DNA from: Archangiaceae bacterium
GTDB lineage: Bacteria > Myxococcota > Myxococcia > Myxococcales > Myxococcaceae
Length of the DNA stretch: 34,297 bases
Direction: 5' to 3'
Assembly (NCBI GenBank): GCA_016879935.1
Contig: JAACJQ010000180.1
Span: forward strand, 1 to 34,297
The notes under the pieces are model-generated. The model was not told where the DNA came from. It saw only the letters and a list, made by a program, of their open reading frames with translations, and did no database searches. This document shows, piece after piece, positions 12,267-31,806 of this stretch. A program made the translations under genes and the position numbers. Each line of letters opens with the position of its first letter. The first letter of the stretch is position 1.

Positions 12267-12884
12267 ATGAAGTTCGCACTGCTCACGCTGCTCGTCGCGA
12301 CCGCCTCGACTGCCGAGGAGGGCTCCGCTGCCAACCCGCCGCCGCCTGCCCCTCCGTCGGCAGCCGATTCCGTCGTCGCCGCCGCCTTCCAGAAGGACAT
12401 CGGCACGAAGGTGGCCGAGGTTCAGAGCGCGACGTCTTCGTGGAGCTCGCTCGCAGCGCCCGGCCTCGCGCTCGTCGCCCTGGCCGCCCTCGCCTTCGCG
12501 CTCACCCGCAAACGCGCGCGCTCGAGCCGAAACATCACGCTCATCGAGTCGGCCGCGCTGGGGCCCAAACGCTCGCTGGTGATCGCCGACGTCATGGGCG
12601 AGCGGCTCGTGCTGGGCGTCTCGGAGGCCGGCATCGCGGTGCTGTCGGCGCGCCCTGCGCCACAGCCGGAGCCTGCGCCGTTCGTGATTCCGCCCGCGAT
12701 GATCGTTCCGCCCGCCATCACCGCGGCGCCGACGCAGAAGATGAACTTTCTCGACCGCATGCTCGGCCGCGTGCCCCAGGCAGCGACCGCCCCGGTGAAC
12801 TTCGACGAGGCGCTGCGTGACTCCCTCGAGGATCAAGAGCTGCGCGCGAAGCTGGCGCTCGGGCAGCGGAGCGTCGTTCCATGA
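12267..12884 (+). CDS. fliO: Flagellar export gate assembly protein FliO
   Basis: FliO is a membrane protein that helps assemble the FliP/FliR export gate. I start it at the ATG of MKFALLTLLVATASTAEE because this makes a proper signal peptide and follows a strong GGGGAGGGA site (12255-12263); an in-frame GTG at 12243 is less likely. The 205-aa product has the signal peptide (1-17), a Pro/Ala-rich periplasmic stretch and a membrane segment (about 60-80, PGLALVALAALAFALTRKR). The FliO domain follows (about 86-125, ITLIESAALGPKRSLVIADV then GERLVLGVSEAGI). The C-terminal tail is variable. Its TGA overlaps the fliP ATG (ATGA). Confidence 0.9.
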   Translation: MKFALLTLLVATASTAEEGSAANPPPPAPPSAADSVVAAAFQKDIGTKVAEVQSATSSWSSLAAPGLALVALAALAFALTRKRARSSRNITLIESAALGPKRSLVIADVMGERLVLGVSEAGIAVLSARPAPQPEPAPFVIPPAMIVPPAITAAPTQKMNFLDRMLGRVPQAATAPVNFDEALRDSLEDQELRAKLALGQRSVVP

Positions 12885-13561
12885 ACTGGCTCGTGCTCGG
12901 CGCGACCGAGGCCCCACTGCAGGTGTCGGTGGGCGGCGGCTCGTCGGCGGTGAAGCTGTTCCTGCTGCTGACGGCCCTCTCGTTCGCGACGGGCGCGCTC
13001 ATCTCGATCACCAGCTTCACCCGCATCGTGATCGTGATGTCGTTCCTCCGCCAGGCGCTGGGCACGCCGCAGCTGCCGCCGAACCAGGTGATCATGGCGC
13101 TCTCGCTGGCGCTCACCGCCTTCGTGATGGCGCCGACGTTCTCGAAGGTTCACACCGAGGCGATCGGGCCGTACCTCGACGATCAGATCAGCGGCAAAGA
13201 GGCGTACGACCGCGGCAGCGGGCCGGTGCTTCAGTTCCTGCTGAAGCAGACGCGCCCTGACGATCTGCGGCTCTTCTACGAGATGTCGGGCTCGGAGCGC
13301 CCCACGCGCGCCGACGAAGTGCCCCTCACCATCGCAGTGCCGGCCTTCATGGTGTCTGAGCTCACCACGGCCTTCCGCATGGGCCTGTTCCTCTTCATTC
13401 CGCTGCTGCTGGTCGACCTGTTCGTCTCGGCCATTCTCATGTCGCTCGGCCTGATGATGGTGCCGCCGACGCTCGTGTCGCTGACGCTGAAGGTGGGCAT
13501 CTTCCTGCTCGCCGACGGCTGGCACCTGCTCGTGCAATCGCTGGTGAGGAGCTTCTCGTGA
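12881..13561 (+). CDS. fliP: Flagellar biosynthesis protein FliP
   Basis: FliP is the main subunit of the FliP5-FliQ4-FliR1 export pore. The 226-aa protein shows the family signatures: FTRIVIVMSFLRQALGTPQLPPNQV in two adjoining parts (about residues 47-71), ALSLALTAFVMAPTF, the periplasmic loop, and the VPAFMVSELTTAFRMGLFLF and LLVDLFVSAILMSLGLMMVP helices. The start shares a 4-bp ATGA overlap with fliO, and the GTGA at its end starts fliQ, so the three genes are translationally coupled. The N-terminal pre-region is short compared with enterobacterial FliP, which has a cleaved signal peptide. Confidence 0.98.
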   Translation: MNWLVLGATEAPLQVSVGGGSSAVKLFLLLTALSFATGALISITSFTRIVIVMSFLRQALGTPQLPPNQVIMALSLALTAFVMAPTFSKVHTEAIGPYLDDQISGKEAYDRGSGPVLQFLLKQTRPDDLRLFYEMSGSERPTRADEVPLTIAVPAFMVSELTTAFRMGLFLFIPLLLVDLFVSAILMSLGLMMVPPTLVSLTLKVGIFLLADGWHLLVQSLVRSFS

Positions 13562-13827
13562 GCCCAGACGCCCTGCCCGCGCTGTTTCGTGAAGGCCTGC
13601 AGTTGATGGGCGTCGTGGGGGCTCCGCTCTTCGCGGCGCTGATGATCGTGAGCCTCGTGGTCGGCGTGCTGCAGAGCGTGACGCAGGTGCAGGAGCCGGC
13701 GGTCGGCGCGGTGCCTCGCCTGGCGACGGTGGTGCTCGTGGTGATGCTGGGTGGCGGCTGGATGATGGAGCGCATGGCCGCGTTCCTGCGGTCGGCCATC
13801 GAGCGGCTCGGCGACCGGGGGTTCTGA
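13558..13827 (+). CDS. fliQ: Flagellar biosynthesis protein FliQ
   Basis: FliQ wraps around the FliP/FliR pore as hairpins in the export gate. The 89-aa protein has two membrane helices (about residues 17-40, PLFAALMIVSLVVGVLQSVT, and 53-75, LATVVLVVMLGGGWMM). The conserved QSVTQVQEPA turn lies between them. Length is exactly typical (about 89). Starts on GTG in a GTGA overlap with fliP. Confidence 0.97.
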   Translation: MSPDALPALFREGLQLMGVVGAPLFAALMIVSLVVGVLQSVTQVQEPAVGAVPRLATVVLVVMLGGGWMMERMAAFLRSAIERLGDRGF

Positions 13828-13830
13828 CCC

Positions 13831-14577
13831 GTGGATCTCTCGCTGCCCCTGGTGTTGGGCTTCGCGCTGGTGCTGACGCGCACCGGAGCCCTGCTGGGAG
13901 TGGCGCCCATTCTCGGCTCCCGCACGGTGCCGATGCGACTGCGCGTCTCGATGGTCGTGGTGGTCGCGATCGTCACCTGGCTCGCCGCGAACGCCCCGCG
14001 CGTTCCCGTGCCGGCCGACTTCGTCTCACTCGCGGCGCTGGTGGTGAGTGAGGTCGCGCTCGGCCTGGCAGCGGGCTTGTCGTCGAAGGTGCTGATCGAT
14101 GCGGCGCAGGCTGGCGGGCAGGCCGCGGCGAACGCGATGGGCTTCGGCTTCGGGCAGATGATCGACCCGCACAGCAGCGCAGAGTCGTCGACGCTCGGTG
14201 AGATCTTCATGGCCCTCGCGCTGGCCGCGGCGCTCGTCTTCCGACTCCCGCAGGAGGCCATTGGCTGGCTGGTGCGCTCTGTTCGAGAGGTGCCTCCCGG
14301 AGGAACGGTCGAGGTCGCGAGCCTCGCCACCGCGATGGTGAAGCAGCTCATCTTCGGCATCACGCTCTCGGTGCGGGTGGCCTTCCCGCTCTTCGCTGCG
14401 GCCATTCTCGGGTACGCGTCGCTCGCCGCGATGGGCCGTACGGCGCCTCAGCTCTCGCTGCAGAACCTCGGGTTCGCGGTCTCCATCGGCTGCGGCGTGC
14501 TGGCGGTCTTCTTCATCGCTCCCGACGCGGCGCGCATGTGTGCAGATGCCGCCACGCGAATCTTCGCCCGGAGCTGA
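13831..14577 (+). CDS. fliR: Flagellar biosynthesis protein FliR
   Basis: FliR is the single-copy subunit that completes the export pore with FliP and FliQ. The 248-aa protein is very hydrophobic with about six membrane segments. Family markers are LVLTRTGALLGVAPILGSRTVP near the N-terminus (residues 8-29, in two parts), the EVALGLAAGLSSK segment, the AGGQAANAMGFGFGQMIDP-like stretch (about 91-110) and FPLFAAAILGYASLAAMGRTAPQ. GTG start 3 bp after fliQ. flhB follows 3 bp after its stop. Confidence 0.96.
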   Translation: MDLSLPLVLGFALVLTRTGALLGVAPILGSRTVPMRLRVSMVVVVAIVTWLAANAPRVPVPADFVSLAALVVSEVALGLAAGLSSKVLIDAAQAGGQAAANAMGFGFGQMIDPHSSAESSTLGEIFMALALAAALVFRLPQEAIGWLVRSVREVPPGGTVEVASLATAMVKQLIFGITLSVRVAFPLFAAAILGYASLAAMGRTAPQLSLQNLGFAVSIGCGVLAVFFIAPDAARMCADAATRIFARS

Positions 14578-14580
14578 GCC

Positions 14581-15660
14581 ATGGCCTCCGAGGAAGAAGA
14601 CCAGGAGCAGAGAACCGAAGATCCCAGTGAACGACGGCTCGCGCAGGCCTTCGAAGAGGGTGACGTCGCCCTCTCGAAAGAGCTCGTCATGCTGGGCGCC
14701 TTCATCACCGGCACGCTGGTGCTGGTGACGGTCGCGCCTGCGTTCAAACGCGCCCTCACCACGCTGGTCTCCGAGACGGTTCGCCTGGCGCCGTCAGCGC
14801 CCTTCAAGACGTTGCCGACCCTGCTGGTGCCGCTCGCGATTCCAGTGGTGACGATCGTGCTCTCGATCGCCGCGGTCGGCATCGCACTCACCTTCGCGCA
14901 GACGCGTGCACACCTCTGGGACGATCGCGCGACGCCCGACTTCTCGCGGCTCTTTAGCCCTTCACGAATCACCCACTTCGTGTCGAAAGAGTTCGCGCAG
15001 GATCTCGGCATCAGCCTCGTCAAGCTCTTGGCAGTCGGTGGGGTCGTGTGGACCTCGTTCCGCGCCGAGTTTTTGACGCTGCACGGTCTGCTGCAGGCAG
15101 GCCCGGCCGATCAGCTCGCGGGAATGTACGCGCCCCTCTCGAAGGCGCTGCTCCGGCTGCTGCTGCTCTTCGCGCTCTTCGCTGGTGCCGACTTTGCACT
15201 GACTCGTTGGCGCTACCGGAAGAAGCACATGATGACCCGCGACGAGCTCAAACGAGAGATGAGGGAAGACGAGGGAGACCCCCTCATGCGCGGCGCCCGC
15301 AAGCGCAAGCACCGTGAGCTCGTGAAGAAGAACGCGATCGCCGAGACCAAGCGCGCCGACGCGTTGATCGTCAACCCGACCCACATCGCCATCGCCGTTC
15401 GCTACCGCAAAGACGAAGACGGAGCGCCGCGGGTGATCGCCAAGGGCAAGGGCGTGCTGGCCGAAGCGATGCGCGACGCGGCCCGCTCGAACGGCATTCC
15501 CATCGTGCAGGACATTCCCCTCGCGCGATTGCTCTACAAGAAGGTGAAGACGGGCGGTCAGGTGCCGCGCGAGACGTTCAAGGCCGTCGCTGCCGTGCTC
15601 GCCTTCGTCTACCGCCTCACCGGCAAGACCCAGCTGCAGAGCCATGAGGTGCGCCTGTGA
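14581..15660 (+). CDS. flhB: Flagellar export switch protein FlhB
   Basis: FlhB is the gate protein that changes export specificity from rod/hook to filament subunits after self-cleavage. The 359-aa protein starts with the charged EEEDQEQRTEDPSERRLAQA stretch typical of FlhB. Four membrane segments follow (about 35-215), then a basic linker (TRDELKREMREDEGD) and the autocleavage motif NPTH (Asn265-Pro266-Thr267-His268) inside ALIVNPTHIAIAVRY. The C-terminal domain has VKTGGQVPRETFKAVAAVLAFVY split over the last 40 residues. All catalytic residues are intact. GTGA overlap with flhA. Confidence 0.98.
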   Translation: MASEEEDQEQRTEDPSERRLAQAFEEGDVALSKELVMLGAFITGTLVLVTVAPAFKRALTTLVSETVRLAPSAPFKTLPTLLVPLAIPVVTIVLSIAAVGIALTFAQTRAHLWDDRATPDFSRLFSPSRITHFVSKEFAQDLGISLVKLLAVGGVVWTSFRAEFLTLHGLLQAGPADQLAGMYAPLSKALLRLLLLFALFAGADFALTRWRYRKKHMMTRDELKREMREDEGDPLMRGARKRKHRELVKKNAIAETKRADALIVNPTHIAIAVRYRKDEDGAPRVIAKGKGVLAEAMRDAARSNGIPIVQDIPLARLLYKKVKTGGQVPRETFKAVAAVLAFVYRLTGKTQLQSHEVRL

Positions 15661-17720
15661 GTGCCGTGGCCACCGAGCAGTCGCGCGTTCCGCCCGAAGC
15701 GATTCTCGCGCTCGCGGTGCTCGGCGTGCTGGCGATCATGGTGGTGCCGCTGCCGGCGCCGCTGCTCGACGGGCTGCTCGCGCTCAACGTCGCGTTGTCG
15801 GTGACGATGCTGCTGGTCGCGCTCGGGCTGACGAAGCCGATGGACTTCTCGGTATTCCCCTCGCTGCTGCTCATCACCACCCTCTTCCGCCTGTCGCTGA
15901 ACGTCGCGACGACGCGGCTCATTCTGCTCAACGGCGGCCAGGGCGCGGGCTCGGCGGGCCACGTCATCGAGGCCTTCGGGCGCTTCGCCGTCGGCGGCAG
16001 CCTCATCGTCGGGTCGGTCGTCTTCATGATCCTGCTGGTGGTGAACTTCACCGTCATCACCAAGGGCTCTGGCCGTGTCTCCGAAGTCGCCGCCCGCTTC
16101 ACGTTGGACGCGTTGCCCGGCAAGCAGATGTCGATCGACGCCGATCTCGCCGCGGGCGTCATCGACGACAAGCAGGCGCGTGATCGCCGGCAGTCGCTGG
16201 CGCGCGAGACCGAATTCTTCGGAGCGATGGACGGCGCCAGCAAGTTCGTTCGCGGAGACGCGATCGCCGGCCTCATCATCACCGCCATCAACATCGTCGG
16301 CGGCCTCGTCGCCGGGCTCGTGCGTGATCACTTCTCGTTCAGCCAGGCGCTCGAGACGTACACGGTGCTCACCATCGGTGACGGGCTCATCACGCAGCTG
16401 CCGGCGCTGCTCGTCTCCACCGCGGCCGGCGTGCTCGTCACCCGCTCCGAAGGCGCCGACCTCGGCACGCAGGTCGGTGGGCAGATCTTCGGCAGCCCGC
16501 GCGCGCTCAAGTACTCGTCGATGGTGCTCGCGCTGATCGGGTTGCTGCCCGGTCTGCCGCTCTTCGCGTTCGGCCCGCTCGCCATCGGCGCCTGGGTGAT
16601 GTCGAAGCGCACCGAGAAGGCGCAGGCGCTGGCGAAGCTCGCGCCGAAGAAGCCCGAGGAGCTTTCGAAGGGCGGCGAGCAGCGTGTTCAAGATCTGCTG
16701 GCCCTCGACACGCTCGAGCTCGAGGTCGGCTACTCGCTGCTCCCGCTCATCGACGTCGAGAAGGGCGGCGAGCTGCCCGGTCGCGTGACGGCACTCCGCA
16801 AGCAGTTGGCCACCGACATGGGCCTCGTGCTCCCGTCGGTGCACCTCAAAGACAACCTCCGCCTCGACGGCACCGAGTACCGCGTGAAGCTGCGCGGCAT
16901 CGAGATCGGCCGTGGCGTCGTGCACGCCGGGCGCCTCATGTGCCTCGAGCCGAACGGTGGAACGCCGACCATCGATGGGCTGCCCGGCAAGGATCCCGCG
17001 TTCGGTCTGCCGTCGGTCTGGGTGATGCCCGAGCAGCGCGCTGCTGCAGAGGCGCGCGGCTACACGCTCGTCGATGGCCCGTCGGTCGTCACCACGCACC
17101 TCTCCGAGCTGATTCGCCGCAACGCGCACGAGCTCATCGGCCGCCAGGAAGTGCAGGAGCTGCTCGGCACCTGCGCGAAGGAAGCGCCGAAGCTCGTCGA
17201 AGACACGGTGCCCGGCGTCGTCAGCCTCGGCGAGCTGGTGCGGGTGCTCCGTGGCCTGCTTCGTGAAGGCATCTCGGTTCGTGATCTTCGCAGCATTCTC
17301 GAAGCGGTCGCCGACGCAGCGCCGAGGAGCAAGGACGCTCACTTCCTCGTCGAGCAGGTTCGCCGTCGCCTCGCCCGGCAGATCACCTCGCGTGTCGCAG
17401 AGCGTGGCGTCGTGCACGCGCTCACCCTCGAGCGGCCTGCCGAAGATGCGCTGCGCCAGTCGCTCGGGCAGAACGACGGCGAGCCGACGATCGCTCCCGA
17501 TCTCGACACCGCGCGTCGGCTCATCTCGAGCCTCGAGACCCGCGCCTCGACGCTCGTCGCTGCTGGCAAGAGCCCGGTGCTGCTCGCGCCGACCGACCTG
17601 CGCAAGCCGCTCTTCGACTTCATGTCCCGCTTCGTCCCCGATCTCTGCGTCGTCTCAGCCCGCGAGCTGGTGCCTGGCACCACCATCGAGCCCGCCGGCA
17701 CCGTCTCGTTGAACCCGTGA
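15657..17720 (+). CDS. flhA: Flagellar biosynthesis protein FlhA
   Basis: FlhA forms the nonameric ring of the export apparatus that receives chaperone-substrate complexes and couples export to proton motive force. The 687-aa protein has about eight membrane segments in residues 1-310. The FHIPEP-family stretch is LLLITTLFRLSLNVATTRLI, followed by GSGRVSEVAARFTLDALPGK and the KQMSIDADLAAGVID region with the functional Asp. The cytosolic four-domain region (about 340-687) includes VHLKDNLRLDGTEYRVKLRG, then DGPSVVTTHLSELIRRNAHE. Length is typical (690-700). GTG start overlaps the flhB stop. Confidence 0.98.
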   Translation: MSAVATEQSRVPPEAILALAVLGVLAIMVVPLPAPLLDGLLALNVALSVTMLLVALGLTKPMDFSVFPSLLLITTLFRLSLNVATTRLILLNGGQGAGSAGHVIEAFGRFAVGGSLIVGSVVFMILLVVNFTVITKGSGRVSEVAARFTLDALPGKQMSIDADLAAGVIDDKQARDRRQSLARETEFFGAMDGASKFVRGDAIAGLIITAINIVGGLVAGLVRDHFSFSQALETYTVLTIGDGLITQLPALLVSTAAGVLVTRSEGADLGTQVGGQIFGSPRALKYSSMVLALIGLLPGLPLFAFGPLAIGAWVMSKRTEKAQALAKLAPKKPEELSKGGEQRVQDLLALDTLELEVGYSLLPLIDVEKGGELPGRVTALRKQLATDMGLVLPSVHLKDNLRLDGTEYRVKLRGIEIGRGVVHAGRLMCLEPNGGTPTIDGLPGKDPAFGLPSVWVMPEQRAAAEARGYTLVDGPSVVTTHLSELIRRNAHELIGRQEVQELLGTCAKEAPKLVEDTVPGVVSLGELVRVLRGLLREGISVRDLRSILEAVADAAPRSKDAHFLVEQVRRRLARQITSRVAERGVVHALTLERPAEDALRQSLGQNDGEPTIAPDLDTARRLISSLETRASTLVAAGKSPVLLAPTDLRKPLFDFMSRFVPDLCVVSARELVPGTTIEPAGTVSLNP

Positions 17721-17730
17721 GGAGTCTCCC

Positions 17731-19098
17731 ATGAGCACGTTCCGCACCTTCAGAGCACCAGACAGCCGCAGCGCCCTGGCGATGGTGAAGGCCGCGCTCG
17801 GCCCCGACGCGATCATCATCGCGACGAGGGAGGTCTCGAACGGCCTCTTCCGCGCGAAGGAGATCGAGGTGACGGCCGCGTTGCCCGAGCCCGGGCCGCA
17901 GTCGAAGGCGCTCGACACGCAGGCCTGGGTCGCGCCGACGACCACGACGCTGACGATGCCCGCCATTCAGGTGCCGCCCTCGCTCACGCCCCGCCGCTAC
18001 CAGACGACCCCCGCCGAGCCCGCGCCGCAGAACGCCGCGCCCCTGAGCTCGATGTTGTCGAGCCCGCCCGCGCGCACCGCCACCACGCAGATGTCGTCGA
18101 CCGATCTGCAGCAGGCCATCGCGGCTGCGACCGAGACCCGCGGCATCGAGACCCGCGGCAGCGACACGCGCGGCATCGAGACCCGCGGCAGCGAGATGAA
18201 CGACGAGCTGGTTCGCCTGCGTGGCGCCTTCGAAGCGATGCAGAAGGAGATGAAGACGCTCACCCGGCAACGCGTGGAGCGCGACCTCTCCTTGCCCGGC
18301 GCGGCGACCGATCTCTATGCACACCTCGTCTCGCGCGGCGTCGAAGAAGAGCTCGCGGAGGAGTGCCTGCGGCAGGCGGTCGAGCTCGCGAAGGACACGC
18401 GCATGGAGACGCTGATGCCGGTGCTCCGCAGCGCCGTGTCGGAGCGGATCATCGGAGGCCGGGCGCCCTGGCTCGCCGATCAGCGCCGCCGCACCATCGC
18501 GCTCGTCGGCCCGACGGGCGTCGGCAAGACCACCACGCTCGCGAAGATCGCCGCACGCGCGATCATGGAGTCGAAGCTCAAGGTCGCGCTCATCACCGTC
18601 GACACGTACCGCATCGGCGCCAGCGAGCAGGTGCTCCGCTACGGCGAGATCATGTCGGTGCCCACGTTCGTGGCGCGTGATCGCATCGAGCTGAACCGCG
18701 CCCTCGAGCGCACCGCGAACGCCGACCTCGTGCTCGTCGACACGGCCGGCCGCAGCGTCAGTGAAGCAGTCGCCCGCCAGGCCGAGATGCTCCGCGCCGT
18801 CGAAGGCATGCAGCTGTACCTGGTCGTCAGCGCGGGCACGGGGTCGCGCGAGATGGCGGCTGCGGCCGAGCGCTATCGCCCGATGGCGCCCGAGCGGCTC
18901 ATCGTGACCAAGGTCGACGAAGCGGTCGGCACCGGAAGTCTTCTCTCTGCCTCGGTTCGCATCGGCCGGCCGATCGTCGCGGTCTCCGACGGCCAGCGGG
19001 TGCCCGAAGACATTCACGCGCTCAACAGCACCGAGCTGGTCGACCTCATCGTGGGTACGCCGACCGCCGAGAGCACCGCGAAGGCCGGGGGGCGCTGA
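17731..19098 (+). CDS. flhF: Flagellar SRP-type GTPase FlhF
   Basis: FlhF is a signal-recognition-particle GTPase that sets where, and with FlhG how many, flagella are built. The 455-aa protein has the N-terminal B domain (FRAPDSRSALAMVKAALGPD, about residues 5-25). A variable linker contains four ETRGI/ETRGS/DTRGI/ETRGS pentapeptides (about 135-154), followed by the N-domain helices and the G domain: P-loop GPTGVGKT (260-267), DTYRIGA (291-297), DTAGRS (337-342) and TKVDEA. AGGAG at 17720-17724 overlaps the flhA stop. flhG follows after 3 bp, the usual functional pair. Confidence 0.97.
   Translation: MSTFRTFRAPDSRSALAMVKAALGPDAIIIATREVSNGLFRAKEIEVTAALPEPGPQSKALDTQAWVAPTTTTLTMPAIQVPPSLTPRRYQTTPAEPAPQNAAPLSSMLSSPPARTATTQMSSTDLQQAIAAATETRGIETRGSDTRGIETRGSEMNDELVRLRGAFEAMQKEMKTLTRQRVERDLSLPGAATDLYAHLVSRGVEEELAEECLRQAVELAKDTRMETLMPVLRSAVSERIIGGRAPWLADQRRRTIALVGPTGVGKTTTLAKIAARAIMESKLKVALITVDTYRIGASEQVLRYGEIMSVPTFVARDRIELNRALERTANADLVLVDTAGRSVSEAVARQAEMLRAVEGMQLYLVVSAGTGSREMAAAAERYRPMAPERLIVTKVDEAVGTGSLLSASVRIGRPIVAVSDGQRVPEDIHALNSTELVDLIVGTPTAESTAKAGGR
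18133..18192 (+). repeat. Four tandem 15-bp repeats inside flhF
   Basis: Four head-to-tail 15-bp units of the form GAGACCCGCGGCATC or GAGACCCGCGGCAGC occur (18133, 18148, 18163, 18178); the third differs by two bases (GACACG). They encode ETRGI, ETRGS, DTRGI, ETRGS in the linker between the FlhF B and N domains. The alternation of ATC and AGC suggests duplication of a 30-bp pair. Copy number could vary between strains without breaking the frame. Confidence 0.9.
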
Positions 19099-19101
19099 GT
19101 C

Positions 19102-19968
19102 ATGGACCAGGCCATCGGACTTCGAGAGCTGATGAAGGAGCACCGCAAGGCGCAGTCGAAGCTGCGCGTCATCGGTGTCACCAGCGGCAAGGGTGGCGTG
19201 GGCAAGTCGAACGTGGCGGCGAACCTGGCGATCCTCGCGGCGCGCGCGGGCAATCGCGTGCTGATCCTCGACGCCGATCTCGGGCTCGCGAACATCGAGA
19301 TCCTCTACGGGCTCAAGCCCCGCTACCACCTGGGCCACCTGCTCGACGGCGACGTGCCGGTGAAGGACGTGATCGCCGAAGGGCCCGAGGGCGTGAAGGT
19401 GCTGCCCGCGGGGCACGGCATTCAGCAGCTGACGCGCCTCGATGAAGCGCAGCGGCTCCGGCTGGTCTCGGCGATCGACCAGCTCGAAGAGGACTTCGAC
19501 ATTCTGTTCATCGACGTCGGCGCAGGCATTGGCGACAACGTGTTGTTCTTCATCGGCGCGGCGCAGGAGGCCCTGCTGGTGGTGAGTCCCGAGCCGACCT
19601 CGCTCACCGACGCGTACGCGACGCTGAAGGTGCTCTGCCAGGAAGGCGGCACGCGGTTCTTCAACGTCGTCGTGAACCAGGCTCCGAACGAGACGGTCGC
19701 GAAGGACATCTTCGACAAGCTGTCGTCGGTGGTGAGCCGGTTTCTCGGCGCGAAGATGCGCTGGCTGGGCTGGTTGCCGCGAGACGAGAACGTGCACCGC
19801 GCGGTGATGTCGCAGAAGCCGCTCGTTGGCCTGTTCCCGAGCTCACCCGCGACGCGCGCGCTCAACATCGTCGCTGACACGTTGTTCCACGAACCGCCCC
19901 CGGTGCAGCTCGAGGGTGGCCTCAAATTCCTCTGGAGCCGACTGCTCCGGGAATCGAGCCCGCACTGA
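19102..19968 (+). CDS. flhG: Flagellar number regulator FlhG (MinD-like ATPase)
   Basis: FlhG is a MinD/ParA-type ATPase that limits flagellar number and stimulates the FlhF GTPase. The 288-aa protein keeps the N-terminal FlhF-activating motif DQAIGLR (residues 2-8). The deviant Walker A is SGKGGVGKSN (about 30-39), followed by LILDADLGLANIEILYGL with the switch I Asp, then FIDVGAG in the position of switch II. The C-terminal GGLKFLWSRLLRES segment is an amphipathic helix expected to serve as membrane-targeting sequence. Directly follows flhF by 3 bp and precedes fliA by 12 bp. Confidence 0.95.
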   Translation: MDQAIGLRELMKEHRKAQSKLRVIGVTSGKGGVGKSNVAANLAILAARAGNRVLILDADLGLANIEILYGLKPRYHLGHLLDGDVPVKDVIAEGPEGVKVLPAGHGIQQLTRLDEAQRLRLVSAIDQLEEDFDILFIDVGAGIGDNVLFFIGAAQEALLVVSPEPTSLTDAYATLKVLCQEGGTRFFNVVVNQAPNETVAKDIFDKLSSVVSRFLGAKMRWLGWLPRDENVHRAVMSQKPLVGLFPSSPATRALNIVADTLFHEPPPVQLEGGLKFLWSRLLRESSPH

Positions 19969-19980
19969 GAGGAGCCCGTC

Positions 19981-20691
19981 ATGCACCGCGCCGCGATTCG
20001 CTACGAGACGACACAGCAGGCTCCACCGCTCAACGACAACGAGGTCGTTCAGAAGTACGCGTTTCTGATCGACCGGGTCGCGCGACGCATCAGCGCGAAG
20101 ACGGCCAACGCCGTGCAACCGGGAGATCTGTGGTCGGTGGGTGCGCTCGGCCTGCTCGATGCGTGGAAGCGCTTCGACCCCGTGCGCGCGGTGAAGTTCG
20201 AGAGCTTTGCCGAGCACCGGATTCGCGGAGCGATGATCGATGAACTCCGCGAGATGGATCACCTGCCGCGGCGCCTGCGGGCCGATGCCGACAAGGCGCG
20301 CAAGGCGAGACACGCGCTCGAGACGCAGTTCGGTCGGGAGCCGACCCAGGAAGAGCTCGCCGCGAAGTTGGGGATCTCGATCGAAGAGGTCGACAGTCTC
20401 GAGGCACTCTCGCAGCCGGCGATGCAGCTGAATCCCGAGATTCCAGTCGTGAGTCACGAGGCGATTCAGGACGAGAAGCTCGACCACGCGCAGTCGGTGC
20501 AACGATTGACGAACGCGATCGGGAAGCTGCCGCAGCGATTGTCGTTGTTGCTGTCGCTGCACTACGTGGAAGGGCTCACGTACAAAGAGATCGCCCAGGC
20601 GCTGGAAGTGAGTGAAGCGCGCGTCTGCCAGTTGCACGGCGATGCGGTGAAGAAGCTGCGTGAGGTGATGACGCAGGCCGAGACCGATTGA
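19981..20691 (+). CDS. fliA: Flagellar sigma factor FliA (sigma-28 family)
   Basis: Alternative sigma factor expected to direct late flagellar and chemotaxis gene transcription. The 236-aa protein matches the length of sigma-28 (about 239). Region 2 includes DLWSVGALGLLDAWKRFDP, then FESFAEHRIRGAMIDELREM, where RIRGAMIDELR is a sigma-28/sigma-D hallmark. Region 3 contains FGREPTQEELAAKLGIS. Region 4 ends in a helix-turn-helix, YVEGLTYKEIAQALEVSEAR. AGAGGAG at 19968-19974 precedes the ATG. No anti-sigma factor FlgM is seen nearby. The next gene begins on the overlapping TTGA. Confidence 0.94.
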   Translation: MHRAAIRYETTQQAPPLNDNEVVQKYAFLIDRVARRISAKTANAVQPGDLWSVGALGLLDAWKRFDPVRAVKFESFAEHRIRGAMIDELREMDHLPRRLRADADKARKARHALETQFGREPTQEELAAKLGISIEEVDSLEALSQPAMQLNPEIPVVSHEAIQDEKLDHAQSVQRLTNAIGKLPQRLSLLLSLHYVEGLTYKEIAQALEVSEARVCQLHGDAVKKLREVMTQAETD

Positions 20692-23990: not shown

Positions 23991-24539
23991 TTACTTCAGC
24001 AACCCGCTCAGCATGCCCATCGCGCCGCCGTCCTGAGCAGGCGCGCCAGCCGTCGGAGCCGCTCCACCACCCGCCAGCATCGGCAGCGCCGTCGTGACGG
24101 TCTGCATCAGCTCCGGCGACAGCTTCGACTGAAGGAACTTGAAGAGAATCGGCGCGATGAGGGCCGCCTTGCCCGCGTCGAGACCGAACTGCCCGAGCAG
24201 GCCCGTCAACGCCGCAGCGCCACCAGCCGCCTGCATCGCCGCGCCCGCGTCTCCACCGACCATCGAGCCAACACCGCCGAGGAGCGAGCCGAGACCCGCC
24301 GCTCCGCCAGACGACGCGCCACCGAGCAGGCCCCCAATCGCCGCCATCGGATCAGCCGGCGCCGCTGCCGGAGCCTGAGCGCCCTGCCACTGCGCCGCCT
24401 CAGGAACCGCTGCGTCGACCTGACCACCGACCGCGGGACCGACGTGCTGCTTGACGAGGCCCATCAGCCCACCAGCGAGCCCCTGCGCCTGGCCCTGCGG
24501 AAGTCCCAGCTGCGATGCGAGTTGTCCGACGAGATCCAT
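23991..24539 (-). CDS. DUF2780-type protein
   Basis: This 182-aa protein resembles the DUF2780 family (VcgC/VcgE type). The N-terminal LVGQLASQLGLPQGQAQGLA, then GGLMGLVKQHVGP segment matches, as does the later LGQFGLDAGKAALIAPILFK, then FLQSKLSPELM block (about residues 110-140). Between them is a Gly/Ala/Met-rich low-complexity region with many GG pairs, and the C-terminus is again Gly/Ala-rich. There is no signal peptide. Function of the family is unknown. AGGAG at 24546-24550 (reverse strand) precedes the ATG. It lies between guaB and guaA on the same strand as both. Confidence 0.72.
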   Translation of the reverse strand: MDLVGQLASQLGLPQGQAQGLAGGLMGLVKQHVGPAVGGQVDAAVPEAAQWQGAQAPAAAPADPMAAIGGLLGGASSGGAAGLGSLLGGVGSMVGGDAGAAMQAAGGAAALTGLLGQFGLDAGKAALIAPILFKFLQSKLSPELMQTVTTALPMLAGGGAAPTAGAPAQDGGAMGMLSGLLK

Positions 24540-24634
24540 GTGTGGCTCCTGGTTGAAGGAGCCGCGTCAGTAGCACCGGAACACGTCACACAGTGCCGAC
24601 GCGCGTCATTCGAGCGGTGGAGCAACTCCCATGA

Positions 24635-26137: not shown

Positions 26138-26653
26138 TCACGCCCCACCCATGCGGAGCAGCCCTTCGAGCGAGTCGATCGTGACGAAGACGAACGCCGC
26201 GTCGCCCAGCGAGAGCACTTCGCCGTCGGTCAGAATCGCGAACTGATCGCCGACTTGCGCGCCGTTGATGAAGGTGCCGTTGGTCGAGCCGAGATCACGA
26301 ATCGCGATCACCTGCGGGCCCGACTGCCAGGTGAACTCGGCGTGGTGCGACGAGACGGAGGGATCTTCGACGATGACGTCGTTATCTTCGAGGCGGCCGA
26401 TGGTCTCGATGCGATCGGCGCCACCACCGACGGGCCACGCCACCATCGCGTCGAAGCCGAGCACCAGCGCCAGGGCGTGACGCGCGAGCTGCGGCTTGCC
26501 TGCGAGCACGACCGTCTTCGGCTGCTGCAGCGCTGCCCGGCGACGAAGCTCATCGGGAGGCTGCTGCACCAGCGCCGCGAACGGGAACGTCGTTCGAAGC
26601 TGCCCTGTGGCGCCCAGCTGGCGAAGTTCGCGAACGGTCAACCTCGGCACCAT
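26138..26653 (-). CDS. FHA-domain protein
   Basis: The 171-aa protein has an N-terminal helical region of unknown identity (1-75) and a C-terminal forkhead-associated domain (about 78-158), which binds phosphothreonine peptides. FHA hallmarks are present: GR (86-87), the SSHH stretch (101-104) with phosphopeptide-binding Ser and His, and the DLGSTNGTFINGAQV block (120-134) with Asn125. Partner kinases are not in the window. I start at the ATG giving MVPRLTVREL; an in-frame ATG at 26689 adds 12 residues and would overlap the divergent protease gene. Neither start has a convincing ribosome-binding site. Upstream of guaB by 39 bp. Confidence 0.85.
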   Translation of the reverse strand: MVPRLTVRELRQLGATGQLRTTFPFAALVQQPPDELRRRAALQQPKTVVLAGKPQLARHALALVLGFDAMVAWPVGGGADRIETIGRLEDNDVIVEDPSVSSHHAEFTWQSGPQVIAIRDLGSTNGTFINGAQVGDQFAILTDGEVLSLGDAAFVFVTIDSLEGLLRMGGA

Positions 26654-27716
26654 GGGAAAGAGAATAGACGTGAGGCAGGCTGTCGTCATGCTCGCACTCG
26701 CGCTGTTGGCTCCTCTCGCCGCGCTGCCCCTCGAACAGGTGGTTCAGAAGGTCGACGGCTCGGTGGTGACGGTTCGAATCGCCCAGAAGAAGACGACCTC
26801 GGGCGCTGGCGGAAAGTCCGTCTCGATCACCACCGGAACCGGCTCGGGCGTCGTGGTTCACCCCGACGGGTGGATCGTCACGGCCGCGCACGTCGTCGAC
26901 GAGGCCGACCTGATCGAGGTGGAGTTCGTCGACGCGCCCGCCTCCACCGCCGAGATCGTCACGCTCTCGCGCACCGAAGATCTCGCCCTGCTCAAGGTCG
27001 ACAAGGTGCCCAAGAAGGTCGTCGTCGCGCCGCTGGGAGACTCCGAGGTGCTCAAGCCCGGCATGCGGCTGTTCGCCATCGGCGCGCCGCTCGGCCTCAC
27101 GCACACCGTCACCTCCGGCGTCGTCAGTGCCCTCCGCACCGACACCCGCAAAGGCCCCCACCCCAGCCGCCTGCTCCAGACCGACGTGCCCATCAACCAG
27201 GGCAACTCTGGCGGCCCGCTCTTCAACGAAGACGGAGAGGTCGTCGGCATCGCCAGCTTCATCGCCTCGAAGTCGGGCGGCTCCATGGGCCTCAACTTCG
27301 CCATTCCCACCTCGACGGTGCGCAGCCGGCTGTTCGAAGCCCCGCTCCCGTGGATTGGCGTCTCGGTGCGCTTCGTCTCGAAGGAGTTCGCCGAGGTCAT
27401 GAACTGGCCGGTCGAAGCCGGCCTGCTCGTCGAGAAGGTGAAAGACGACGGCGCAGCCGACAAGGCGGGCCTTCATGGCGGCATGATCGAGGCCGAGATC
27501 GGGGGCTCCACGATCATTCTGGGCGGCGATCTCGTGCTGCGCGTGAACGGGTTCGCGACGACCGACTCGAAGGCCATTGGCAAGTCGCTCGCCGCCATGC
27601 AGCCCGGAGACAGCATCAAGTACGACGTGCTCTGCGCCGGCACGGCGAAGACGATCGAGGTGCCGCTGCCGAAGCTGCCGAAGATTCCGACGTTGACGGC
27701 CGTGAAGTCGAAGTGA
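26652..27716 (+). CDS. HtrA/Deg-like serine protease with one PDZ domain
   Basis: Exported protease of the trypsin-like S1C (HtrA/DegP) family, expected to degrade or hold misfolded envelope proteins. With the ATG at 26652 it is 354 aa. The hydrophobic segment VVMLALALLAPLAALPL (11-27) is a signal peptide or anchor. The triad is intact: His80 (TAAHV), Asp110 (TEDLALL), Ser186 (QGNSGGPL). One PDZ domain follows (about 240-330, PWIGVSVRF to LRVNGFATTDSKAIGKSL). Internal starts at GTG 26670 and ATG 26688 would give a more standard signal peptide. It has one PDZ where DegP has two, resembling DegS. PilZ-Hsp70 follows 31 bp downstream. Confidence 0.92.
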   Translation: MGKRIDVRQAVVMLALALLAPLAALPLEQVVQKVDGSVVTVRIAQKKTTSGAGGKSVSITTGTGSGVVVHPDGWIVTAAHVVDEADLIEVEFVDAPASTAEIVTLSRTEDLALLKVDKVPKKVVVAPLGDSEVLKPGMRLFAIGAPLGLTHTVTSGVVSALRTDTRKGPHPSRLLQTDVPINQGNSGGPLFNEDGEVVGIASFIASKSGGSMGLNFAIPTSTVRSRLFEAPLPWIGVSVRFVSKEFAEVMNWPVEAGLLVEKVKDDGAADKAGLHGGMIEAEIGGSTIILGGDLVLRVNGFATTDSKAIGKSLAAMQPGDSIKYDVLCAGTAKTIEVPLPKLPKIPTLTAVKSK

Positions 27717-27747
27717 CGGCCGTGAACAAGGTCGACTCAGCCGAGCG

Positions 27748-29922
27748 GTGGGATTAACTCCCGACGTTCTCGTGACGAGCGCCAAGCCGATCAGCCTCTC
27801 GGTTCGCCTGCCGTTCAACACGGCCGAGGAGTTCCTTGGCGGCTACGGCTCGAACATCACGCGCGGCGGCATCTACCTGCGCGCGAGGCAGCTGCACGCT
27901 CCGGGAACGCCCGTCACGCTCGAGGTGAAGCTCGCCGACGGCCAGCGCCTGCTCTACGGCAACGCGACGGTCTCGTGGGTGACGGGAACGCGCGGTGAAG
28001 GCGTCACCGGCATGGGGTTCAAGTTCATCACCCTCGACGCACAGAGCCGGCGCTTTCTCGAAGCGGCGGCGGCCGCGATGCCACACGCGCGCAGCCCGGA
28101 GCCGCCCGTTCCTCGCAACGTCGGCCCCATCGACACGCGGCCTGATGCCGTCGAGCCACCGCCTCCGCCTGCACCACCGCCGTCACAGGCGCAGGCCGAG
28201 CTGCCCTCCGAAGCGAGCGGGCGTCTGCTCGTGCAGGGCGCCGCCGGCCCCGAGATCAAAGCGCCCGAGTTCGAAGCGCCGCCCTCGGAGCCGCCGCGCG
28301 ATGGGCCGATCATCGGCATCGATCTCGGCACCACCAATTCGTGCGCGGCCATCGTGAAAGATGGTCAGCCGGTCGTGTCGCGCAGCCGCGATGGGCAGTC
28401 GCTCATTCCGTCGGTCGTCGCCCTCACCTCTCGCGGAAAGCTGATCTGCGGAGGCGCCGCGCGCAGCCAGCTCGTCACCAACCCGCGATGGACGGTGGCC
28501 GGCTTCAAGCGCCTCGTCGGCCGTGAGTACGAGTCGCCCGAGGTGCAGGAGCTGCTGCCCCGCTTCACGTGGGAGGTCGTGCCCACCGAAAGCGGTGACT
28601 GCGGCGTGAAGCTGGCCGACCGCGTGTACTCACTCGAGCAGATGTCGGCGATGGTGCTGCGCGAGGTGAAGCAGCTCGCCGAGCAGACGCTGCAGCAGCC
28701 CATCAACCGCGCGGTGATCACCGTGCCTGCCTGGTACTCGGAGAAGCAGCGCCTGACGGTGCGTGAGGCCGGCCGGCTCGCGGGCCTGCACGTCGAGCGC
28801 ATCGTGAACGAGCCGACGGCGGCGGCGCTCGCGTGGGGCTATGGCCGTCGCAAGAGCCAGCGCGTGCTCGTGTACGATCTGGGCGGTGGCACCTTCGACG
28901 CGTCGGTGCTCGAGCTGTCCGACTCGGTCTACGAGGTCGTCTCCACCGGCGGAGATCCCTTCCTCGGCGGCCTCGACTTCGACCACGCGATCGTCGGCTG
29001 GCTGCTTGCCGAGTTCGAAGCGAAGTACGACGCGCTTTTCAACGATCGCGTCTCGATTCAGCGCGTACAAGACGCCGCCGAGCGCACGAAGATCGCGCTG
29101 TCGGACAAGACCGAGTCGCGCATTCACGTGCCGTTCGTGACACTCGTGAAGAACCAGCCCGTCGATCTCGACGTCACGATGACGCGCGCGCAGCTCGTGT
29201 CGCTCACGCGGCACCTGGTCGATCGCACGATGGAGGTCTGCCAGGAGGTGCTGCAGGCCCGGTACCTGCGCGCCGATCAGATCGACGAGATTCTGCTGGT
29301 TGGTGGTCAGGCCCGCGCACCGCTCGTTCAGGAGCGCATCACCCTGCTCTTCGGCCGCCGGCCGCTCTTCGGCATGAACCCCGAAGAGGCCGTCGCGCAA
29401 GGCGCCGCGTTGCTCGCGCACTCGCTCGAGACGAAGGGTGGGCTGCTGCTGATCGACGTGCTCCCGATGTCGATCGGCATCGGCCTGCCGGGCGGGCGCT
29501 TCTACCCGATCATTCAGCGCAACACGGCGCTGCCCGTGACCCGCAGCTACCGCGTCTCGACGACGAAGGAGAACCAGAGCGAGCTCGAACTCTCGATCTT
29601 CCAGGGCGAGTCGGCGCTGGTGCGAAACAACCACCTGCTCGGGGTCTTCAAGATCGCGAACCTGCCGCCGGGTCCACGCGGGGCCGTGAGCGTCGAGCTC
29701 GCCTTCGAGCTGTCGAACGAGTGCATTCTGACCATCACCGCGAAGGAGGACTCGACGGGCCAGACCGTGAGCACCACCTACGCGACGCAGCAGACGCCCG
29801 ACGCCGCTCGCAAGAAGGTCGCGACGCTCGAGTCCGAAGGGCCCGAGCTGACGGCCGAGGAGATCGCCGCCGCCAAGCCGACCGGCCTCTTCGCCTTCTT
29901 CAAGCGCTTGTTCGGCGGGTGA
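27748..29922 (+). CDS. PilZ-Hsp70 fusion protein lacking the lid, with MinD-like C-terminal tail
   Basis: A 724-aa fusion. Residues about 12-105 form a PilZ-like domain of the Myxococcus paralogous type (SNITRGGIYLRARQL, then GVTGMGFKFITLD); the RxxxR c-di-GMP motif is not visible and [DN]xSxxG appears as NITRGG, so ligand binding is uncertain. After a Pro/Glu-rich linker (110-183), an apparently full Hsp70 ATPase domain starts at IIGIDLGTTNS (188-198), with NEPTAAALAWGYG (from 354) and DLGGGTFDASVL (from 377). The linker motif LLLIDVLPMSIGIG and a beta substrate-binding domain follow (to about 670). The helical lid is missing; instead about 35 residues end in TGLFAFFKRLFGG, very like the MinD membrane-targeting helix. 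GTG start. Hsp70 identity is certain; membrane targeting is inferred. Confidence 0.95.
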   Translation: MGLTPDVLVTSAKPISLSVRLPFNTAEEFLGGYGSNITRGGIYLRARQLHAPGTPVTLEVKLADGQRLLYGNATVSWVTGTRGEGVTGMGFKFITLDAQSRRFLEAAAAAMPHARSPEPPVPRNVGPIDTRPDAVEPPPPPAPPPSQAQAELPSEASGRLLVQGAAGPEIKAPEFEAPPSEPPRDGPIIGIDLGTTNSCAAIVKDGQPVVSRSRDGQSLIPSVVALTSRGKLICGGAARSQLVTNPRWTVAGFKRLVGREYESPEVQELLPRFTWEVVPTESGDCGVKLADRVYSLEQMSAMVLREVKQLAEQTLQQPINRAVITVPAWYSEKQRLTVREAGRLAGLHVERIVNEPTAAALAWGYGRRKSQRVLVYDLGGGTFDASVLELSDSVYEVVSTGGDPFLGGLDFDHAIVGWLLAEFEAKYDALFNDRVSIQRVQDAAERTKIALSDKTESRIHVPFVTLVKNQPVDLDVTMTRAQLVSLTRHLVDRTMEVCQEVLQARYLRADQIDEILLVGGQARAPLVQERITLLFGRRPLFGMNPEEAVAQGAALLAHSLETKGGLLLIDVLPMSIGIGLPGGRFYPIIQRNTALPVTRSYRVSTTKENQSELELSIFQGESALVRNNHLLGVFKIANLPPGPRGAVSVELAFELSNECILTITAKEDSTGQTVSTTYATQQTPDAARKKVATLESEGPELTAEEIAAAKPTGLFAFFKRLFGG

Positions 29923-29923
29923 A

Positions 29924-29948
29924 CATCAATCACTGCGGGTGATTGATG
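29924..29948 (+). terminator. Perfect 10-bp hairpin after the Hsp70 fusion gene
   Basis: CATCAATCAC and GTGATTGATG pair perfectly around a TGCGG loop, starting one base after the Hsp70 stop codon. It is AT-richer than its surroundings. No T tract follows, so it may be a terminator of atypical form, an mRNA 3'-end stabiliser or a protein-binding palindrome rather than a classical terminator. Confidence 0.45.
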
Positions 29949-29965
29949 GGCGCGCAACGGGTGAC

Positions 29966-29990
29966 GGAACTTTGGGCGCCCCGGTGCGTT
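29966..29990 (+). promoter_or_regulatory. ECF-sigma-type promoter upstream of the DUF697/SHOCT gene
   Basis: GGAAC at 29966-29970 and CGTT at 29987-29990 are separated by exactly 16 bp, the arrangement recognised by many ECF sigma factors of the SigE/RpoE type. Transcription would start near 29997, giving a leader of about 34 nt with GAGGGGA before the ATG at 30031. GGAAC and GTTCC also form an imperfect inverted repeat. Confidence 0.6.
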
Positions 29991-30030
29991 CCAAGCGCGC
30001 ATACTCGCCGCACCACTCGAGGGGATTCCC

Positions 30031-30591
30031 ATGACCAGCCCAGCCGCCGCAGCCGACTCCGTCATTCGCCAGCACGTCTACTGGAGCGTGGGCGCTGGCC
30101 TCGTGCCCGTGCCCATCGCCGACTTCGTGGCCGTGACCGCCGTGCAGGTCGATCTCATTCGGCAGCTCTGCAGCCTGTACGGTTCGTCGTACGACGAAGG
30201 CACCGGGAAGATCTGGGTGGGCGCGCTCACGGGTGGCGCGGTGGCCCGCATCGGCGCCTCGGCCATCAAGGCGATCCCCGGCATCGGGACGATTCTCGGT
30301 GGCGTGTCGATGTCGATCGCGTCGGGAGCATCGACCTACGCCGTGGGCCAGGTGGTGAAGAACCACCTCGCGAGCGGCGGCACGATGACCAACCTCGACG
30401 TCGAGGCGGCGAAGAAGAAGTACGCGAGCGAGTACGAGAAGGGCAAAGAGGTCGCGAAGGAGGCGTCGCAGAACAAGGAAGCCGGCGACGTGTTCGAGAA
30501 GCTCGCGAAGCTGGGCGAGCTGCGGGACAAGGGCGTCATCACCGAGAAGGAGTTCGAGGCGAAGAAGGCCCAGCTCCTCAAGGACGTCTGA
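30031..30591 (+). CDS. DUF697-type membrane protein with C-terminal SHOCT domain
   Basis: The 186-aa protein has a DUF697-like N-terminal region (about 12-112): hydrophobic segments VYWSVGAGLVPVPIADFVAV and GALTGGAVARIGASAIKAIP followed by GIGTILGGVSMSIASGAS, with the family's VPVPIAD turn and VDLIRQLCSLYG helix. A charged linker follows, then a SHOCT motif (about 152-184, LGELRDKGVITEKEFEAKKA), a short oligomerisation/anchor domain. DUF697 proteins are linked to membrane-associated GTPase or stress contexts, but the role here is unknown. Start chosen from GAGGGGA 5 bp before the ATG. An ECF-type promoter lies upstream, suggesting stress induction. Its stop abuts the stop of the convergent DUF1501 gene with no gap. 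Confidence 0.86.
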   Translation: MTSPAAAADSVIRQHVYWSVGAGLVPVPIADFVAVTAVQVDLIRQLCSLYGSSYDEGTGKIWVGALTGGAVARIGASAIKAIPGIGTILGGVSMSIASGASTYAVGQVVKNHLASGGTMTNLDVEAAKKKYASEYEKGKEVAKEASQNKEAGDVFEKLAKLGELRDKGVITEKEFEAKKAQLLKDV

Positions 30592-31806
30592 TCACAACAG
30601 CGACGTGTGCGGGTTGGCACCCCACATCGTCGTGCTGGGAGCCCCGGCCACCGCCGTCAGATACGACCAGAGCCCGGCGTAACCAGGCGTTCCCATCGGC
30701 AACCGGTAGCCCGCATTGGCGCCAGCGTCGAATCGGCCCGTCGAGCCCTGACGCACCCGCTTGCCGAAGACGGTCGCGCTGGTGCCGCTCCCGTGCTCCG
30801 AGGCCGTCGCCGTGTTGCCCCCGATACGCGCGAAGTCACCCCACAACAACGTGACGACGTTACGGCCCTGCATCGCCAACGTTCGCTCGAGGAAGATGCG
30901 AAGCGACGGGAGAATTCCAGAACGCATCATCTCGCGCGACACGTTGCCCGTACCGTCGCCGTGGGTGTCCCAGTTGTGGAAGTCGGCACCCAACTTCACG
31001 CCCGGGCTGGAGACACAGACGACGTCGACACCAGCCTTGATCATCAACTCGGCGCCAGCGAGCTGCGAGGTGAACGAGCTGGCTGACGTGTCGGTTGGCG
31101 CCAGGCCGTAGGCGGTCGCGATCTCGTTCCAGTCGATGCCAGGCGGAGGCGGCTGCTTGAGCGCGTTGATCAACGAGTGCGTGCCTTCCCACGTCTTCTT
31201 CAGCGCGTTGGGGCTGTGCTGAGAGCGGGCCGCGCCGTAGGCCAGCGAGGCTTCGAGCGCCCTGGCCAGCTGCGGGCGGCCAGCACCTGCCGTCTCGTTC
31301 GACACCAGCGCGATCGCCGCCGAGAGATCGGGTACCGCCGTCATCGCAACGCCGTTCACTGCGCGGTGTGGCGCCCCTCGTGCGGGTGCCTGCCCGAAGT
31401 GCACACAGCGAAACGGCGCGGTGCCCTGCAGCGCATTGGCGAGGAGGAGCGGCACGCTCTGGCCCTTGTCGAACCAGGCATACTGGAGCGCGAAGTCGTG
31501 ACCCGATGCGCGGTGGTTCACGCCGACCGTCGCCATCTTCTGAAGCACCGGATCGGGCAACGAGCCGATGGTCGAGGCGTCGACGACGACGCCATTGCCG
31601 AGGTCACGAACGTTCGAGGCAGCGCAACCGTAGAGGTTCTTCGACACGTAGCCGTCGGCCGCCGAGAAGAACGCGTTGTACCCACCGTCGAGGTACACCA
31701 GCACGATGGTCGGCTTCTCTGTCGCGGTGACGTCGGCTCGCGCGGTCGCCGAGACGGCCAGCGAACCTGCACCGCTCCACAGCAGCTGTCGTCTTGAGAG
31801 GCGCAT
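30592..31806 (-). CDS. DUF1501 family exported protein
   Basis: Secreted protein of the DUF1501 family, related to the alkaline phosphatase/sulfatase fold. I start at the ATG of MRLSRRQLLWSGAGSLAVSA because it gives a twin-arginine-like signal (SRRQLL plus hydrophobic stretch, cut near TARA); the open frame extends further upstream but through the preceding gene. The 404-aa product has family blocks VLVYLDGGYNAFFSA (near residue 35), NWDTHGDGTGN (about 275), and LLWGDFARIGGNTATASEHG (about 325), equivalent to the GEFGRTP...H region of DUF1501. Substrate unknown. Lies 8 bp after the lipoprotein gene and is the third gene of a probable operon. Confidence 0.88.
   Translation of the reverse strand: MRLSRRQLLWSGAGSLAVSATARADVTATEKPTIVLVYLDGGYNAFFSAADGYVSKNLYGCAASNVRDLGNGVVVDASTIGSLPDPVLQKMATVGVNHRASGHDFALQYAWFDKGQSVPLLLANALQGTAPFRCVHFGQAPARGAPHRAVNGVAMTAVPDLSAAIALVSNETAGAGRPQLARALEASLAYGAARSQHSPNALKKTWEGTHSLINALKQPPPPGIDWNEIATAYGLAPTDTSASSFTSQLAGAELMIKAGVDVVCVSSPGVKLGADFHNWDTHGDGTGNVSREMMRSGILPSLRIFLERTLAMQGRNVVTLLWGDFARIGGNTATASEHGSGTSATVFGKRVRQGSTGRFDAGANAGYRLPMGTPGYAGLWSYLTAVAGAPSTTMWGANPHTSLL

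Follow-up and report, generated by a model that had tools for sequence, protein, structure and literature searches.

Genomic context of the DUF697/SHOCT gene

The window, which is the whole stretch of 34,297 nucleotides that was analysed, is contig C117 of a draft genome (G000) that comprises 9.5 Mb in 445 contigs. On its forward strand it has, in this order, a gene encoding an HtrA/DegP-like protease, a gene encoding a protein with PilZ and Hsp70 domains, a gap of 108 bp, and a gene encoding a DUF697/SHOCT protein (Table 1); a gene with weak similarity to DUF1501 lies on the opposite strand and converges on the last of these. Gene calls were obtained with a caller based on codon usage and were checked by eye against the window. 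Regarding the protease, the product of htrA scored 242.6 bits with TIGR02037, which is below the cut-off of that model (416.2), and 117.1 bits with Trypsin_2, and its match to PDZ_2 was weak. In the Hsp70/DnaK-like protein the PilZ domain (TIGR02266) is N-terminal. The DUF697/SHOCT protein exceeded the Pfam cut-off for SHOCT (37.8 bits vs. 27) and fell under that for DUF697 (24.8 bits vs. 27.7). Close relatives of its gene were found in Myxococcaceae, Archangium and Myxococcales MAGs, and a more distant one in a single Rhodothermales MAG. The AlphaFold model of the protein had a mean pLDDT of 72.8, and a search of the PDB with this model gave no match at E ≤ 0.001.

The genus to which the window belongs was represented by seven genomes, G000 (that of the window) to G006. 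The hsp70 gene lies directly 5' of the DUF697/SHOCT gene in all seven, and htrA adjoins hsp70 in five of them, the sequences of G001 and G004 not extending that far. The gap between hsp70 and the DUF697/SHOCT gene contains, in order, a hairpin, GGAACTTT, CGTT, GCGCATACTC and a ribosome-binding site. It had been described in the initial annotation as the only sizeable gap of the region, which holds roughly and at the local scale, while two others, of 170 bp at 24465-24634 and of 118 bp at 26570-26687, are present further upstream. The window also has a cluster of flagellar-type export genes at 12881-20691, encoding FliP, a FliR-type Bac_export_1 protein, FlhB and FlhA together with an SRP54-type GTPase and a ParA/MinD-like ATPase, with a FliA-like sigma factor gene as its last member.

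Table 1. Coordinates of genes and predicted regulatory features in the htrA-hsp70-DUF697/SHOCT region of the window.
Feature	Position	Strand	Basis
HtrA/DegP-type serine protease gene	26688..27716	+	TIGR02037, Trypsin_2, weak PDZ_2
PilZ + Hsp70 (DnaK-like) gene	27772..29922	+	Pfam, NCBIfam
Hairpin or dyad CATCAATCAC-TGCGG-GTGATTGATG	29924..29948	+	Perfect 10-bp stem, covariation
-35-like box GGAACTTT	29966..29973	+	Conservation in relatives
-10-like box CGTT, 16 nt after GGAAC	29987..29990	+	Conservation, invariant spacing
Predicted transcription start zone	29995..29999	+	Usual ECF geometry
GCGCATACTC block, conserved; either early transcribed sequence or the -10 of an overlapping second promoter	29997..30006	+	
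Ribosome-binding site GAGGGG	30019..30024	+	Sequence; purine-rich in relatives
DUF697 (weak) + SHOCT gene, 186 aa	30031..30591	+	Pfam, orthologues

An ECF-type element upstream of the DUF697/SHOCT gene

Promoters of ECF sigma factors generally combine an AAC-containing -35 with a short GT-type -10 at a distance of about 15-17 nt, and transcription usually starts 5-9 nt after the -10. The element in the gap agrees with this form in both boxes and in their spacing. The initial annotation had pointed to GGAAC-N16-CGTT as an ECF promoter of the DUF697/SHOCT gene, and the motif is present where it was placed, GGAAC (29966-29970) being the first five bases of the -35-like box; 40 nt separate the end of CGTT from the ATG, as had been noted, and the accompanying ribosome-binding site was also confirmed, although GAGGGG was graded as fair where it had been called good.

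The bare GGAAC-N16-CGTT pattern is in itself weak evidence: the window has a single copy where 0.17 would be expected, and one or more copies also arose in 15 of 100 shuffled windows. With the spacer extended to 15-18 nt, two occurrences were found against 0.97 expected, and 24 of 100 shuffles had at least two. When the TTT that follows GGAAC was added to the pattern (GGAACTTT-N13-CGTT), one occurrence was detected in the window and none in 100 shuffles.

Comparison of the seven genomes revealed that GGAACTTT-N13-CGTT is exact in four (G000, G003, G005, and G006), with 8/8 bases of the -35, 4/4 bases of the -10 and the spacing of the window retained in the latter three, and that G001 differs by one mismatch in the -35 (7/8) and has CGTT in full (4/4). 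The inner spacer of 13 nt had far fewer positions in common with the window, namely 2/13 in G006, 4/13 in G001, 7/13 in G005, and 8/13 in G003. Boxes and spacing are conserved above the spacer in five of the seven genus members, and conserved boxes with a diverged spacer are the footprint expected of a bipartite promoter. In G002 and G004 the boxes are absent or decayed, TGTT being retained at the -10 position in both. In unrooted trees of the 3' part of hsp70, G002 and G004 formed one group (support 0.994) and G003 and G005 another, and the placement of G000, G001, and G006 differed between the nucleotide and protein trees. On these trees four lineages retain the motif and a single clade is without it; as they have no root, loss and late gain are indistinguishable. 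Loss of both boxes in close relatives, named in the initial annotation as an observation that would count against a promoter, is found in the clade of G002 and G004 and in no other. Regarding the three orthologues that do not belong to the genus (G010, G066, and G067), GGAAC-N16-CGTT was not detected within 260 bp upstream of the gene, and the orthologue in G066 has a loose GGAAC-N15-GGTC located 136 bp before the start.

The symmetry of GGAAC and GTTCC had also raised the idea of an operator. A palindromic operator GGAAC-N17-GTTCC for a dimeric regulator would be in line with the exact symmetry in the window (0.03 expected) and its presence in G003 and G005, but GTTCC has changed to GTTCG in G006 and to GTTGA in G001 with CGTT unaltered, so that it is kept in three of the five genomes with the element, and the TTT conserved next to GGAAC is without a mirrored counterpart. 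Since GTTCC varies while CGTT stays, and TTT is unmirrored, a directional promoter is favoured and an operator is considered very unlikely.

A different question arises from the block downstream of CGTT. GCGCATACTC is identical in G000, G005, and G006, has one difference in G003 and is changed in G001, and in G006 it is displaced by an indel of 1 nt relative to CGTT. The gene may be driven by a housekeeping-sigma promoter with CATACT (30000-30005) as its -10, GGAAC...CGTT then being an upstream factor site or a minor promoter, which would explain both the conservation of the block (G001 having CAGAGT in place of the hexamer) and a distance to CGTT that varies by 1 nt as it would for an independent element. 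However, inspection by eye revealed no sequence 16-18 nt upstream that could be recognised as a -35 hexamer, a consensus scan of 27600-30700 returned no sigma-70-type promoter, and the fixed spacing between GGAACTTT and CGTT would be left unexplained; such a promoter is therefore rated as unlikely, if less so than an operator. The conservation of GCGCATACTC is nevertheless not accounted for by an ECF promoter alone. The footprint, together with position and strand, supports the proposal of an ECF-type promoter for the DUF697/SHOCT gene.

A hairpin directly downstream of hsp70

A single base separates the hairpin from the stop codon of hsp70, and the hairpin is recognisable in six of the seven genus members, the 5' arm being absent from G004. 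In the remaining six genomes, with arms that had been spotted by eye beforehand, 93.3% of cells pair and four of the ten pairs have changed on both sides, a result reached by 3 of 500 shuffles, with the caveat that sequences which share ancestry may surpass such shuffles even when no structure exists. G-U pairs are present in the hairpins of G001, G003, and G005. Its stem is the second longest perfect stem found after 335 stop codons with a gap of at least 60 bp. These 335 stop codons had a mean z of 0.02 against mononucleotide shuffles, that is, no general hairpin tendency, and the dyad is therefore not the routine terminator of this genome. The stem is not followed by the T run expected of an intrinsic terminator. 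A degenerate pattern of the hairpin matched the window's own genome at this site only. The region of 126 nt as a whole gave a folding z of -1.11, with 31 of 200 shuffles folding as well, and no Rfam element was matched. The hairpin probably marks where the upstream transcript has its 3' end, or else the dyad, with its centre some 61 bp ahead of the predicted start, is a protein-binding site.

Distribution of the motif in the genome and the genus

The occurrence of the motif upstream of other genes, a search proposed in the initial annotation, was investigated in a sample of 1.2 Mb comprising 60 stretches and the window, which is 12.6% of the assembly and a non-random selection of long contigs, with 997 predicted genes and 672 upstream regions of at least 40 bp. 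GGAAC-N16-CGTT was detected in one of the 997 sampled upstream regions, that of the DUF697/SHOCT gene. No enrichment was seen in this sample, in which spacers of 8-26 nt had no peak at 16. GGAAC alone was not enriched upstream of genes (158 forward vs. 143 reverse). The regulon implied by the initial annotation was thus not borne out in the sampled part.

In the genome as a whole, GGAAC-N15-17-CGTT has 202 sites and the reversed pattern 63, a difference without value as evidence because codon composition differs between the motif and its reverse. The first 30 of these 202 sites by contig order were classified, of which 24 are inside predicted genes (one spanning a predicted start), five are intergenic but not correctly oriented upstream of a gene, and one is upstream of another gene. 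The 24 sites within genes, and the recurrence of the bare N16 pattern in shuffled windows, are what would be seen if the element were a chance match without function, conserved through close kinship; but the boxes are conserved well above the intervening DNA in genomes in which the 3' part of hsp70 is 83.5-86.7% identical to that of the window, and this explanation is given very little credence.

The extended motif GGAACTTT-N13-CGTT has a single site each in G000, G003, G005, and G006, in every case at the DUF697/SHOCT gene, no site in G001 and G004, and one site in G002 that lies inside a predicted gene. With the motif relaxed to GGAACTTT-N12-14-SGTH, 13 sites were obtained across six genomes, comprising that of the window, three at the DUF697/SHOCT gene of G003, G005, and G006, eight in predicted genes (including a DUF697 site in G010, see below) and one intergenic site elsewhere; no further target of the relaxed motif was shared among the six genomes.

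Candidate sigma factors

Promoters of RpoE in Escherichia coli have a TCAAA-like -10, which is absent from the window element, where CGTT is found instead. Their -35, GGAACTT (PMC8103513), is shared by the element, and an HtrA/DegP-type gene is nearby. The motif published for EcfG1 of Rhizobium etli is exactly GGAAC-N16-CGTT (PMC3892343), so the designation of the element as a textbook SigE/RpoE promoter was a loose one. This consensus of the EcfG (ECF15) general-stress promoters of Alphaproteobacteria is identical to the element in the window, and the same source states that EcfG is exclusive to Alphaproteobacteria (PMC3892343). In contrast to the EcfG system, no broad regulon was found here, and NepR, the partner of EcfG, was detected in none of eight genomes, with a positive Caulobacter control; an EcfG general stress response was rejected on the absence of NepR.

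Regarding htrA, GGAAC-N16-CGTT was not detected in the 150 bp upstream of this gene in five genomes, and a loose GGAAC-N17-TGTG is present about 105 bp upstream of it in G000 and G003 alone. The ECF factors CarQ, CorE, and DdvS of Myxococcus xanthus, which belongs to the same order of bacteria as the host of the window, serve few targets. The consensus for CorE was built from four promoters (PMC3107203). In the two papers searched, a likeness in form to these systems was not found, neither GGAAC nor GAAC occurring in PMC3107203, and neither GAAC nor CGTT in PMC9304148.

The genome of the window gave 89 matches to Sigma70_r2, from 150 scored out of 158 first-look candidates in an assembly that is 95% complete; 88 of the loci were scanned by their upstream DNA, the 89th being the FliA-like gene in the window, and four of the 89 genes have less than 200 bp of upstream sequence at contig ends. 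The initial annotation had reported that no ECF gene is in the window, and this is correct, as the sole listed Sigma70_r2 match (19981-20691) is FliA-like, having regions 2, 3, and 4 and adjoining the flagellar-export genes. It had also suggested a search for an ECF gene carrying its own copy of the motif, but none of the 89 sigma genes has GGAAC-N14-17-CGTT in the 400 bp that precede region 2, and an autoregulated ECF partner identifiable by an exact copy of the motif at that distance was rejected. Within 700 bp, two of 88 loci have the pattern, at 475 and 543 bp. Loose matching (at least 9/12 bases within 400 bp) gave 13 matches upstream of sigma genes vs. 17 on the opposite strand, and GGAAC-N15-19-[CG]GTT within 450 bp gave none in the sense orientation and two on the opposite strand. 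A looser scan for GAAC[CTA]T and [CG]GT[TCA] separated by 13-15 nt returned three matches, at L048 (-596), L123 (-120), and L141 (-119). The closest copy is AGAAC-N16-CGTT, 120 bp before region 2 of the sigma gene of L141; this gene was rejected as a conserved partner, because none of the seven other genomes, those with the promoter among them, has an orthologue of it (34% identity at best). A tblastn search (E ≤ 1e-5) with 88 sigma proteins against 15 loci of orthologues, seven of these with flanks of up to 10 kb, and the window detected only the FliA-like gene, and an ECF gene adjoining the orthologues was rejected on this search. The sigma factor appears to be encoded elsewhere and to use the exact motif at very few genes. 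As a separate observation from the sigma scan, locus L103 (G000:C16:23850-24560) has two divergent Sigma70_r2 genes close together on opposite strands with the palindrome GGAATTTCC between them.

A related element at a second DUF697 gene

In G010, GGAACTTT-N13-CGTT is present twice, and the DUF697/SHOCT orthologue of this genome does not have the motif. Of the two sites, one falls within a predicted gene. The second precedes by 30 nt an ATG, supported by homology, of another DUF697 gene, which encodes DUF697 and SCP2 domains; this site was scored as coding by the gene caller, which chose an earlier ATG. Among 17 loci of DUF697+SCP2 orthologues (L171-L187), ten have GGAAC-N17-[CG]GTT before the ATG, with 11-13 nt between the end of the element and the ATG in nine loci and 37 nt in G024. 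Of the others, G010 has the N16-CGTT form and G007 has GGAAC-N18-GGTC, the element is absent in G008, G015, G033, and G036, and the locus in G002 is cut by a contig end. In the genome of the window, GGAAC-N15-17-GGGTTA was found only at the DUF697+SCP2 gene (L178, G000:C20:24278-24304, reverse strand). G004 retains the element at DUF697+SCP2 and has none at the orthologue of the window's gene, hence the two elements need not share one sigma factor.

These observations allow a rather doubtful but wider reading, to be taken as a whole, in which the DUF697 proteins of Myxococcaceae would have a small ECF circuit of their own, related GGAAC-type promoters would serve DUF697/SHOCT in this genus and DUF697+SCP2 in several genera, the motif would move between the two DUF697 paralogues (as in G010), and the hairpin would insulate the promoter beside the HtrA-Hsp70 quality-control pair.

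Interpretation

Taken together, the element is likely to be a working ECF-type sigma promoter dedicated to the DUF697/SHOCT gene, with its start about 34 nt before the gene. We infer that an ECF factor, freed by its own signal, would bring RNA polymerase to GGAACTTT/CGTT and that transcription would start near 29997, so that the DUF697/SHOCT transcript would be separate from that of htrA-hsp70 and dependent on the signal. The hairpin past the Hsp70 stop codon may end or trim the upstream transcript. The neighbouring HtrA and Hsp70 genes hint at a signal of envelope or protein damage.

The neighbours of this probable promoter are the genes of an HtrA-type protease and of a protein that fuses PilZ to Hsp70. 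A textbook ECF motif need not imply a large regulon where, as here, some 90 sigma genes are present, and the promoter, supported by its footprint, would provide a testable regulatory input for a DUF697/SHOCT protein of unknown function.
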